The notes beneath the pieces were generated by a model that ran no database searches, had not been told where the DNA came from, and saw only the letters and a program-made list of their open reading frames with translations. Both the position numbers and the translations under genes were made by a program. A DNA stretch of 64,000 bases from SAR116 cluster bacterium AG-390-L20 (GTDB taxonomy: Bacteria; Pseudomonadota; Alphaproteobacteria; Puniceispirillales; Marisalimonadaceae), in assembly GCA_003278095.1 (NCBI GenBank), contig QCHB01000012.1:1-64000 (forward strand), given 5' to 3'. This document shows, one piece after another, positions 12,206 to 20,558 of this stretch (position 1 is the first letter of the stretch; every line of letters begins with the position of its first letter).

Positions 12206-13006
12206 ATGTTTTTGAATGACACTGATTTAAAAAAATTTGATGAAGATGGTTATTTGTTTTTTCCAGAAATGTTTAGCAAAGATGAAGCTTCACTTTTAAA
12301 AGAGGAAGCAGAAAAAGTTTACTCACAAGATAGAAAAGAAGTTTGGAAAGAAAGTTCTGGAGTTGCACGTACAGCATTTGCTGCTCATAAATATAATGAA
12401 GCTTTTAGAAGATTAGGAGCACATCCCAGATTAATTGACCCTGTTTCTCAAGTATTGCAAGGAGATATTTATATGCATCAGTTTAAGTTAAATGCAAAAG
12501 CTGCATTTGACGGAGCTGTATGGCAATGGCACCAAGATTATGGCACTTGGAAAAGAGATGATGGTATGCCAGAGCCAAGAGCAATGAATATAGCAGTTTT
12601 TTTAGATGATGTAACAGCTGCAAATGGTCCGTTATTATTTATTCCTGGAAGTCATAAGTCTGGCGTTATAGACGCAGGTCATGACCTCGAGACAACCAGT
12701 TACCCATTATGGACTTTAGATAATAAAAAAGTTCTTGAGTTAGCTGAAAGAGGCGGCTGTGTTGCACCGACAGGACCTGCAGGAAGCATGCTTATGTTTT
12801 CTTCACTTTTAGTACATGCAAGTCCACCAAATATTTCTCCATTTGGAAGAAGTATTGTCTACCTCTCATTATGCCATGTTGACAACCATATACAAAAATT
12901 TAAGCGTGACGAATGGATAGCTCACAGAGACTTTGCACCTATTTGTAAACTTAGTGACAATTGTTTAAGCGAATTAATAAGCGAAAACGTTAGTGCCGCT
13001 GAGTAA
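12206..13006 (+). CDS. Phytanoyl-CoA dioxygenase (PhyH) family protein
   Basis: A 266-residue Fe(II)/2-oxoglutarate oxygenase. The iron triad can be read as His109-x-Asp111 in WQWHQDYGTW and His204 in LLVHAS; Arg215 is placed to hold 2-oxoglutarate. AVFLDDVTAANGPLLFIPGSHKSG is the typical strand between them. The family hydroxylates acyl-CoAs, ectoine and many small molecules; no CoA-specific feature is evident, so the substrate is open. A GGGAGAG ribosome site precedes the ATG. It heads an operon with a protein tyrosine phosphatase and a SAF-domain oxidoreductase. Confidence 0.9.
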   Translation: MFLNDTDLKKFDEDGYLFFPEMFSKDEASLLKEEAEKVYSQDRKEVWKESSGVARTAFAAHKYNEAFRRLGAHPRLIDPVSQVLQGDIYMHQFKLNAKAAFDGAVWQWHQDYGTWKRDDGMPEPRAMNIAVFLDDVTAANGPLLFIPGSHKSGVIDAGHDLETTSYPLWTLDNKKVLELAERGGCVAPTGPAGSMLMFSSLLVHASPPNISPFGRSIVYLSLCHVDNHIQKFKRDEWIAHRDFAPICKLSDNCLSELISENVSAAE

Positions 13007-18980: not shown

Positions 18981-19715
18981 ATGGCTAATTTTAATGGACA
19001 AACTGCAGTAATTACTGGGGGAGCACAAGGTATTGGTTTAGCGACTGCAAAGAGTTTTATTAACGATGGCTGTGAAGTTATGATTTGGGACATAGATGAG
19101 AAAATGGGTGTGGAGGCAGCAAAAGACCTAAATTGTCATTTTTTAAAAGTTGATCAGACTAATAACAACTTAGTCGAAGAAGTTACAGAAAAAACTCTTA
19201 AACAAATAAATAAAATTGATATTCTAGTTTGTAGCGCAGGTATTGCTGGACCAACTTATTCAACTTGGGATTATCCTGTTGAAGAATGGTCAAGAGTATT
19301 TGACGTAAATGTAAATGGTGTATTTTACTGTAATAAGCATGTTGTAAAATCAATGCGTGAAAGAAATTATGGTAGAATCATCAATATAGCCTCAATTGCA
19401 GGCAAAGAAGGTAATCCTAATGCTCCTGCATATTCCGCATCTAAAGCAGCTGTAATAGGTTTAACAAAATCTCTTGGTAAAGAAACAGCAGATAAAGACA
19501 TCGCTGTTAATTGTATAACACCAGCTACGGCTAAAACGAGAATTCTTGATCAAGTATCACAGGAATTTATTGATTATATGATTTCAAAAATTCCAAGAAA
19601 TAGATTTGTTACTGTTGAAGAAGTTGCATCTCTTATTACCTTTCTAGCGAGTAAAGAGAATAGTTTCACCACGGCTGGTGTCTTTGATATTTCAGGAGGT
19701 AGAGCTACTTATTGA
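18981..19715 (+). CDS. Short-chain dehydrogenase/reductase (sugar-acid type)
   Basis: A 244-residue SDR with cofactor motif GGAQGIG (13-19), NAG-like CSAGIAG, catalytic Ser in NIASIAG and YSASK (Tyr/Lys). The closing FDISGGRATY resembles SDRs annotated as 2-dehydro-3-deoxy-L-rhamnonate or other sugar dehydrogenases. The aspartate in IWDID favours NAD+ over NADP+. A strong AGAGGAGAG site precedes the ATG. It is flanked by otnC-cluster genes on one side and the three-hairpin element on the other. Oxidation of a sugar or keto-deoxy acid is the likely role; the exact substrate is not evident. Confidence 0.85.
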   Translation: MANFNGQTAVITGGAQGIGLATAKSFINDGCEVMIWDIDEKMGVEAAKDLNCHFLKVDQTNNNLVEEVTEKTLKQINKIDILVCSAGIAGPTYSTWDYPVEEWSRVFDVNVNGVFYCNKHVVKSMRERNYGRIINIASIAGKEGNPNAPAYSASKAAVIGLTKSLGKETADKDIAVNCITPATAKTRILDQVSQEFIDYMISKIPRNRFVTVEEVASLITFLASKENSFTTAGVFDISGGRATY

Positions 19716-19717
19716 TT

Positions 19718-19822
19718 GGTGAGGATTTTTAGGAGATCCTCTGCACCTTAACTCAAAAACTAATAATCGGGGGAGGAATTTATTAGTTAGAATTAGTACA
19801 ATTAAACGGGGGAGTTTTATTG
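19718..19822. ncRNA. Candidate small RNA: three hairpins with Shine-Dalgarno / anti-Shine-Dalgarno loops
   Basis: Three consecutive inverted repeats lie between the ends of the SDR and LysE genes. Hairpin 1: GGTGAGGAT (19718-19726) pairs with ATCCT...CACC (19736-19747, 3-base bulge), loop TTTTAGGAG. Hairpin 2: AACTAATAA (19758-19766) pairs perfectly with TTATTAGTT (19780-19788), loop TCGGGGGAGGAAT. Hairpin 3: CAATTAAA (19799-19806) pairs 7 of 8 with TTTTATTG (19815-19822), loop CGGGGGAG. Read on the + strand each loop exposes a GGA motif; read on the minus strand each exposes CTCCT or CTCCCCC, an anti-Shine-Dalgarno sequence. Either direction could be a functional RNA; the strand is unresolved. 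No U-run terminator is evident. Confidence 0.45.
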
Positions 19823-19833
19823 AACATGTTCAA
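19820..19833. promoter_or_regulatory. 14-base perfect palindrome, possible operator
   Basis: TTGAACATGTTCAA is a perfect palindrome immediately next to hairpin 3 of the candidate small RNA. It could be a dimeric regulator's site controlling a minus-strand transcript, or a fourth small hairpin. It superficially resembles GAAC/GTTC SOS boxes, but the half-site spacing (2 bases) is not that of a known LexA box. Confidence 0.35.
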
Positions 19834-19955
19834 CAATTGATTCTTTTTCGAAATTTGTCTTGTGATAATTAAAAATAAACTCTTAAGGCTTAAATTTTGT
19901 TATATATTTGTGCAAAAAACTTTCTTTTATAATTTTTGTTTAATAATTAATCATT

Positions 19956-20558
19956 TTAAACTGCTGTATTAAGTTCCATGACTGCAGAAAGTATTACAAC
20001 TGCGAATAAAGAAAGTCCCATTCCCCTATTTACCCAAACCTGCTTGTTAGATGCTAATGACCATCTTTTTAGACTTATCCCTAACCACAACCAAAATAAA
20101 TGTATAGGTATCCAAATTGAATTTACTATGATAAATTTAGTTAGAATCTCAACTTTATAAGAAGCCATTCCAAGTGACAGCACTACAAACAAATGTCCTT
20201 GGACTACATAAGCCTTTGGATTGACAAATTGTAAAAAAATTCCTTCGTATAATTTTGGAGCTTTAAAACTTTGTTTAAAACCAGTTTTATTTTCAGATGT
20301 AGCTATACGCCAAGATAAAAAAGATAAGTAGGATAATGATAAAAATAAAAAAGTTAGTTCAACTCCTTCAATTTCAAACAGAAACTGTTTAAAGCCCAGC
20401 ACAACTAGTAATGCTACCCCATTAGTTCCAAAAAACAAACCAATGAGATACATCATTCCAACTTTCCATCCAAAACCAGCACCAACACCAGCTAAAGAAA
20501 GTACGCCTGGACCAGGAGTAACCATCATTAAGAAACTAATAATTATGTAAGCAATCAT
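19956..20558 (-). CDS. LysE/RhtB-family exporter
   Basis: A 200-residue membrane protein with about six hydrophobic segments. The N-terminal MMVTPGPGVLSLAGVGAGFGWKVG, with its PGPG motif, and FVNPKAYV in the middle are signatures of LysE/RhtB amino-acid exporters. Such proteins expel amino acids or related metabolites across the inner membrane. It is monocistronic, converging on the SDR gene across a 240-base gap that holds the three-hairpin element. Substrate not predictable. Confidence 0.85.
   Translation of the reverse strand: MIAYIIISFLMMVTPGPGVLSLAGVGAGFGWKVGMMYLIGLFFGTNGVALLVVLGFKQFLFEIEGVELTFLFLSLSYLSFLSWRIATSENKTGFKQSFKAPKLYEGIFLQFVNPKAYVVQGHLFVVLSLGMASYKVEILTKFIIVNSIWIPIHLFWLWLGISLKRWSLASNKQVWVNRGMGLSLFAVVILSAVMELNTAV

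Follow-up and report, generated by a model that had tools for sequence, protein, structure and literature searches.

Three adjacent hairpins in the gap between two convergent genes of a SAR116-cluster bacterium raise the question of whether they encode a regulatory RNA and, if so, from which strand and of which kind. SAR116 bacteria are abundant in the surface ocean. The element lies at positions 19718–19822 of the window (the whole stretch of DNA analysed, 64,000 nucleotides), inside a 240-base gap between an SDR-family and a LysE-type gene.

The hairpin locus and its neighbourhood

The features of the locus are as follows (R1 is the covariance model described in the next section).

18981..19715, plus strand: SDR-family dehydrogenase gene, convergent with the element; NCBIfam SDR-family matches, those shown being below cut-offs; co-occurs with the element
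19712..19824, minus strand: conserved RNA element (R1 match, 102.4 bits, E 4.2e-20), the proposed small RNA; evidence from conservation and wobble-pair strand bias
19718..19747, minus strand: hairpin 1, last of the three when the minus strand is read; stem GAGGAU/AUCCUC, loop CUCCUAAAAA; plus-strand loop around TTTTAGGAG
19758..19788, minus strand: hairpin 2; stem AACUAAUAA/UUAUUAGUU, loop AUUCCUCCCCCGA (AUUCCUCCCU in many relatives); plus-strand loop TCGGGGGAGGAAT
19799..19822, minus strand: hairpin 3, the first hairpin of the minus-strand RNA; loop UCCCCC; plus-strand loop around CGGGGGAG
19956..20558, minus strand: LysE-type translocator gene, 5' of the RNA and on the same strand; PF01810, 26.4 bits (cut-off 25.6); co-occurs with the element

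The sequence does contain the three inverted repeats and loops that an initial annotation had claimed. The minus-strand loops are CUCCCCC, UUCCUCCC (also written UUCCUCCCCC) and CUCCU, all of them anti-Shine-Dalgarno, and on the plus strand all three contain GGA. The 5' strand and loop of hairpin 3 (AAUAAAACUCCCC in the window, AAUAAACUCCCC in many relatives) are complementary to the ribosome-binding site of a proteorhodopsin gene (see below). When both strands of 19712–19836 were folded, the minus strand gave −24.3 kcal/mol, with shuffles averaging −13.17 (sd 2.8; z −3.98; 0 of 200 shuffles as good), and the plus strand gave −26.2 (z −1.67; 14 of 200 shuffles as good).

From its sequence the neighbourhood looks like a sugar-acid (tetronate-type) catabolism cluster. 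A 3-oxo-tetronate 4-phosphate decarboxylase match exceeds its NCBIfam cut-off (268.3 bits, cut-off 250), and one best NCBIfam match, to 2-oxo-tetronate isomerase, reaches 266.5 bits, below the cut-off of 325; glycolate-oxidase GlcD-like flavoproteins and a 2-dehydro-3-deoxygluconokinase-like kinase are likewise matched below cut-off. Other genomes with the same locus are mostly SAR116 single-cell genomes and MAGs, with LysE proteins 97–100% identical in the nearest six.

Distribution among relatives

At the DNA level, 27 of 37 genomes of the genus matched the element (E ≤ 1.6e-18), and none of 24 further genomes from the order did so at E ≤ 1e-3. The 27 loci were used to build R1, a covariance model of the minus strand. 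Within the order R1 matched 32 of 136 genomes. Thirty of these are among the 40 genomes of the genus; the other two, G064 and G065, belong to a sister genus (g12) of the same family and both matched with E about 1e-10. Over 385 genomes of the class the window's own genome was the sole match; the searches of order and class were run with strict filters, by which weak matches can be lost. The earlier suggestion that three similar loops are unlikely to be chance is thus borne out by conservation.

The covariance model places one locus in each genome, except in G028, where matches fall on two contigs, one possibly a duplicate. Fifteen weak DNA matches in relatives and in G000 were inspected as second copies; none is a copy, and they apparently lie in or at coding sequence. 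In none of 14 SDR/LysE loci inspected in g11, g13 and G029 were the loop and stem motifs seen together. In one of the g11 genomes (G063, locus L105) the gap between SDR and LysE holds, judged by eye, an apparent second SDR gene and no element.

The element occurs together with its flanking genes. Among the ten element-negative genomes of the genus, nine gave no match to SDR (E ≤ 1e-40) or to LysE (E ≤ 1e-20), and in the remaining one, G029, fragments of both genes lie at contig ends. The genus genomes are 52–100% complete; in G014 (99% complete) element, SDR and LysE were all not found. This co-occurrence would also suit a minus-strand RNA whose main role is in cis, where it would affect the convergent SDR mRNA by antisense pairing or interference. 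Any SDR read-through transcript would be antisense, with perfect complementarity, to the proposed RNA. In addition, the SDR ribosome-binding site reads GGGGGTGTTTATG (also written GGGGGUGUUUAUG) in 11 of 30 loci and pairs there with the RNA at −16.2 to −17.7 kcal/mol. However, pairing to SDR via the 5' segment is weak in the window's genome (−8.5), and a perfect overlap has no need of hairpins and conserved loops, yet pairs and loops are kept. We consider a mainly cis-acting role quite unlikely.

Covariation and probable strand of the proposed RNA

Compensatory changes were counted in two alignments. In A3, which comprises 30 distinct sequences and was fitted to the model structure, 95.1% of cells pair, a figure that falls to 28–48% when partners are slid, and both partners have changed in 13 of 28 pairs (32 cells). 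In the MAFFT alignment A1 (26 distinct rows), tested with a structure named by the analyst, this holds for 8 of 28 pairs (15 cells). In neither case did any of 500 shuffles reach these values, counts that are not a probability because the sequences are related. In A3 the both-side changes concern 5 of 8 pairs of hairpin 3 and 8 of 11 pairs of hairpin 2. The six inner pairs of hairpin 1 are invariant in all 30 rows, so covariation is silent on its stem; of the outer three, two vary to G-U and one by unpaired cells only.

The loops are largely kept among aligned relatives while the stems of hairpins 2 and 3 change, and in the sister genus the C-rich loop of hairpin 2 sits on a different stem (AGACAAUAAU...AUUAUUGUCU). 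The loops do vary in places: G065 has CACCCCCC instead of CCUCC in loop 2, and G066 has CUCACCC in loop 3. A possible break of the RNA's own hairpin by the change in G065 was considered and dropped, because a shifted register lets an A-U pair close the stem again in the fitted alignment. In hairpin 1 (AGGUGCAGAGGAUCUCCUNAAAAUCCUCA) both stem and loop stay nearly unchanged even in the sister genus, while hairpins 2 and 3 drift. Pairing through the loop alone is insufficient to account for this invariance of the stem, which suggests a further constraint, for instance a protein, processing or pairing with a long partner.

With respect to the strand, the minus-strand structure contains 45 G-U cells at 13 pair positions (19 of the 45 in one column pair) versus 5 A-C cells at 5 positions, and these roles swap on the plus strand. 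The RNAalifold covariation term was −1.01 for the minus strand versus −0.05 for the plus strand. As wobble pairs fit the minus strand, we assign the RNA to it; wobble asymmetry, RNAalifold, fold z-scores and an upstream promoter-like pair together make this the most likely strand.

Promoter-like signals and ends of the proposed RNA

Three features were noted on the 5' side of the modelled RNA.

19833..19838, minus strand: −10-like hexamer, AATTGT here (weak, 3 of 6); TATAAA, TATAAG or TATAAT in 7 of 32 loci
19856..19861, minus strand: −35-like hexamer, placed 17 bases ahead of the −10-like one; AAGACA in the window and 7 further loci, ATGACT or ACGACT in 18 of 32
19898..19914, minus strand: imperfect dyad, TGCACAAATATATAACA here; TGCTCAAA...GCA in 18 of 32 loci; read by eye

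The promoter-like pair lies 7–12 bases 5' of the modelled RNA, whose 5' end is proposed near 19824–19830. In 19 of 32 loci GAC[TA] is followed at 16–18 bases by at least 4 of 6 letters of TATAAT, where about 1.5 loci would be expected from shuffles; this pattern was chosen post hoc, after the listing had been seen, and the loci are related. Six of the 32 loci, including both of the sister genus, are without the GAC[TA] pair. A general sigma-70 consensus score of the upstream region did not exceed that of shuffles (8.22 vs 8.14), and a consensus promoter scan listed no site at the promoter-like pair. The dyad, which follows the LysE stop codon and precedes the promoter-like pair, is a possible operator or transcription-factor site. 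A scan for intrinsic terminators listed none on the minus strand between 18800 and 20700, which counts against the proposed RNA. The element holds no conserved open reading frame; the longest run is 39 codons and the lengths vary.

These data also bear on two readings of the plus strand. According to the first, the element is part of the SDR 3' UTR, and its three G-rich loops serve as a sponge or stability element, for example by titrating C-rich small RNAs like Caulobacter CrfA. The element does lie directly 3' of the SDR stop codon, is not found where SDR is not found (G029 excepted) and folds on the plus strand with an energy similar to that of the minus strand; moreover, PMC12559287 describes a sponge with G/A-rich loops against anti-Shine-Dalgarno small RNAs in Caulobacter, a precedent that supports this reading. 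Against it, the 45 G-U cells of the minus strand would be A-C on the plus strand (5 vice versa), the RNAalifold term favours the minus strand, and the upstream conservation is promoter-like on the minus side. We therefore regard a 3' UTR element as unlikely. The second reading, put forward in the initial annotation, is a decoy for CsrA/RsmA, with the GGA of each plus-strand loop as its binding motif. This fails because a search for csrA (PF02599) in 61 genomes, 37 from the genus and 24 from elsewhere in the order, gave no match, while the profile matched 3 of 14 reference genomes used as control; the strand evidence also favours the minus strand, and a CsrA decoy is thus very improbable indeed.

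Candidate targets

GGGGAG followed by ATG at 2–12 bases is commoner than in a reversed control in five genomes (50 vs 21 in G000), an excess such as any Shine-Dalgarno word has. Among individual genes, the most suggestive conserved target, as a predicted pairing only, is a rhodopsin gene. Its product matches PF01036 (bacteriorhodopsin-like) with 150.2 bits and has no NCBIfam match; we name it proteorhodopsin from its look and context, because crtI-like and phytoene-synthase-like genes come next in G022. Its 5' region carries AAGGGGAGTTTATAAATG, which is shared by all 31 genus genomes that have the gene. This sequence is complementary, along a stretch of 11 bases, to the AUAAACUCCCC of many relatives; an additional A in the window's clade puts a bulge in the pairing. 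In the sister genus the partners differ in step (UAUAACUCCCC with GGGGAGUUAU in G064; UAUAAAUCCCC with GGGGAUUUAUA in G065), and RNA and mRNA pair best within their own genome (−19.7 kcal/mol in G064, −16.5 in G065 and −19.3 in G021), six swaps giving −11.3 to −18.0. With the window genes as background, proteorhodopsin ranks 1st of 58 for the clade-2 RNA of G021; for the window's own RNA it comes 3rd when the 5' segment is scored and 4th when the full RNA is.

Other observations weigh on the opposite side. All six element-negative genus genomes that have the proteorhodopsin gene keep its ribosome-binding site unchanged, and the RNA therefore does not account for the conservation of this site. 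Changes in the RNA of G066, G027, G032 and G035 are unmirrored at proteorhodopsin, with pairing at −12.4 to −15.5; in these calculations one common 5' region stood for all genus genomes except G066. In six inspected genomes of g11 and g13 the sites differ (GGGGAGGTCC or GGGGAGGACC). On balance, a real interaction with the proteorhodopsin mRNA is possible yet doubtful.

The proteorhodopsin 5' region is of interest by itself. Over the 60 bases before the start (L162, L179, L201) it is near letter-perfect across 28 genus genomes, and it contains an inverted repeat, CTAGCAGTTGCTAG, together with AACATGACAAGTATAAGGGGAG, also where the small RNA is not present. This region may carry its own regulation.

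Two further lines were not retained. The 10-mer GGGGAGTTTA recurs inside the coding sequence of crtI and of a DRL-oxidoreductase (WGVYFS and WGVYAV in G022), and because of this its recurrence alone is no evidence for a target. Genes of the sugar-acid cluster were rejected as targets; PhyH (window position 12206) pairs at −19.1 in G000 but at −13.7 in G022, and the other cluster genes vary.

Proposed mode of action

Taken together, the element is likely to be the gene of a trans-acting anti-Shine-Dalgarno small RNA on the minus strand; we infer its transcription, its Hfq-independence, repression and its targets. That the locus is an RNA gene is founded on conservation, covariation in hairpins 2 and 3, strand bias, the single locus per genome and co-occurrence with SDR and LysE. 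A small RNA of about 110 nucleotides is probably made from the minus strand, from a sigma-70-type promoter of its own just right of 19830. Its three hairpins would expose C-rich loops complementary to Shine-Dalgarno sequences, and its most likely effect is translational repression of mRNAs whose ribosome-binding site is a strong GGGGAG or GGAGG. Pairing would start at a loop and proceed to the adjoining stem strand, and would take place without Hfq.

None of 25 genus genomes (G000–G024) gave a match to Hfq (PF17209), versus 15 of 16 genomes of the other families of the order, which makes Hfq-independent action the natural reading. No chaperone was identified, a point against the proposed mode of action. 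For the genus itself the pattern has the appearance of a lineage-level loss of Hfq. If a conserved anti-Shine-Dalgarno RNA does operate where Hfq is not found, a multi-loop design of this type can work Hfq-free.

A more specific scheme would tie sugar-acid catabolism to the use of light: by covering the proteorhodopsin ribosome-binding site the RNA would silence proteorhodopsin-crtI-crtB without Hfq, and SDR read-through would provide a perfect-match sponge. We rate this scheme as rather unlikely. Should the proteorhodopsin pairing be real, it would amount to a post-transcriptional switch on light-driven energy capture.

Comparison with known small RNAs

Rfam 15 gave no match at the gathering threshold over the window and none up to E 5 for 19300–20300, and no description of a SAR116 regulatory small RNA was present among the best matches in the open-licence literature. 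The initial annotation had compared a minus-strand RNA with cuckoo, CcsR and AbcR. The anti-Shine-Dalgarno design that it proposed is upheld by the wobble asymmetry between strands, the covariation and the promoter-like conservation; the homology is not, given that no Rfam family matches and that Hfq was not found in the 25 genus genomes. AbcR-type RNAs act with Hfq, and the proposed RNA would differ from them in this respect.

As described in PMC3927594 and PMC10253847, SmelA075/SmelA099 and the cuckoo RNAs (CcsR, RS0680a) of Rhizobiales and Rhodobacter have 2–4 hairpins with anti-Shine-Dalgarno loops on more variable stems. The layout of three such hairpins resembles that of SmelA075 (PMC3927594), and variable stems are found in hairpins 2 and 3, whereas the stem of hairpin 1 is invariant. 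The hairpin loops of SmelA075/cuckoo are given as CCUCCUCCC, with several copies per genome (PMC3927594), and CcsR RNAs as co-transcribed with a DUF1127 gene and ending in a Rho-independent terminator (PMC10253847). In contrast, the element's loops differ from each other rather than carrying CCUCCUCCC in each, it occupies one locus per genome, and no terminator was found. Nor does it share the DUF1127 link of cuckoo/CcsR (CIN1 locus): DUF1127 (PF06568) has no match in G000, and among the matches listed for 25 of 46 genomes none is on the element contig.

The alphaR8 RNAs of Caulobacter (SisA-D), studied with Hfq, are portrayed in PMC12559287 as having a single-stranded anti-Shine-Dalgarno core, UUUCCUCCCU, 3' of a weak hairpin, together with a Rho-independent terminator. 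The loop-2 core AUUCCUCCCU is one letter from this decamer (PMC12559287); unlike in alphaR8, it forms one of three hairpin loops, no terminator was found, and none of the 25 genus genomes matched Hfq. ChvR, also of Caulobacter, is presented in PMC6237742 as an Hfq-free base-pairing small RNA with two pairing sites; its regulator and its target (chvT) are different from those considered here.

A C-rich loop that pairs with G-rich target sites is also a property of Caulobacter GsrN. GsrN has one such loop, is under general-stress control and is processed from a longer RNA.

Because loops, terminator, copy number and neighbours differ, and Rfam has no match, we do not file the element with SmelA075/cuckoo or with alphaR8. 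Most likely it is a new conserved small-RNA family of known design, present in part of the SAR116 cluster.
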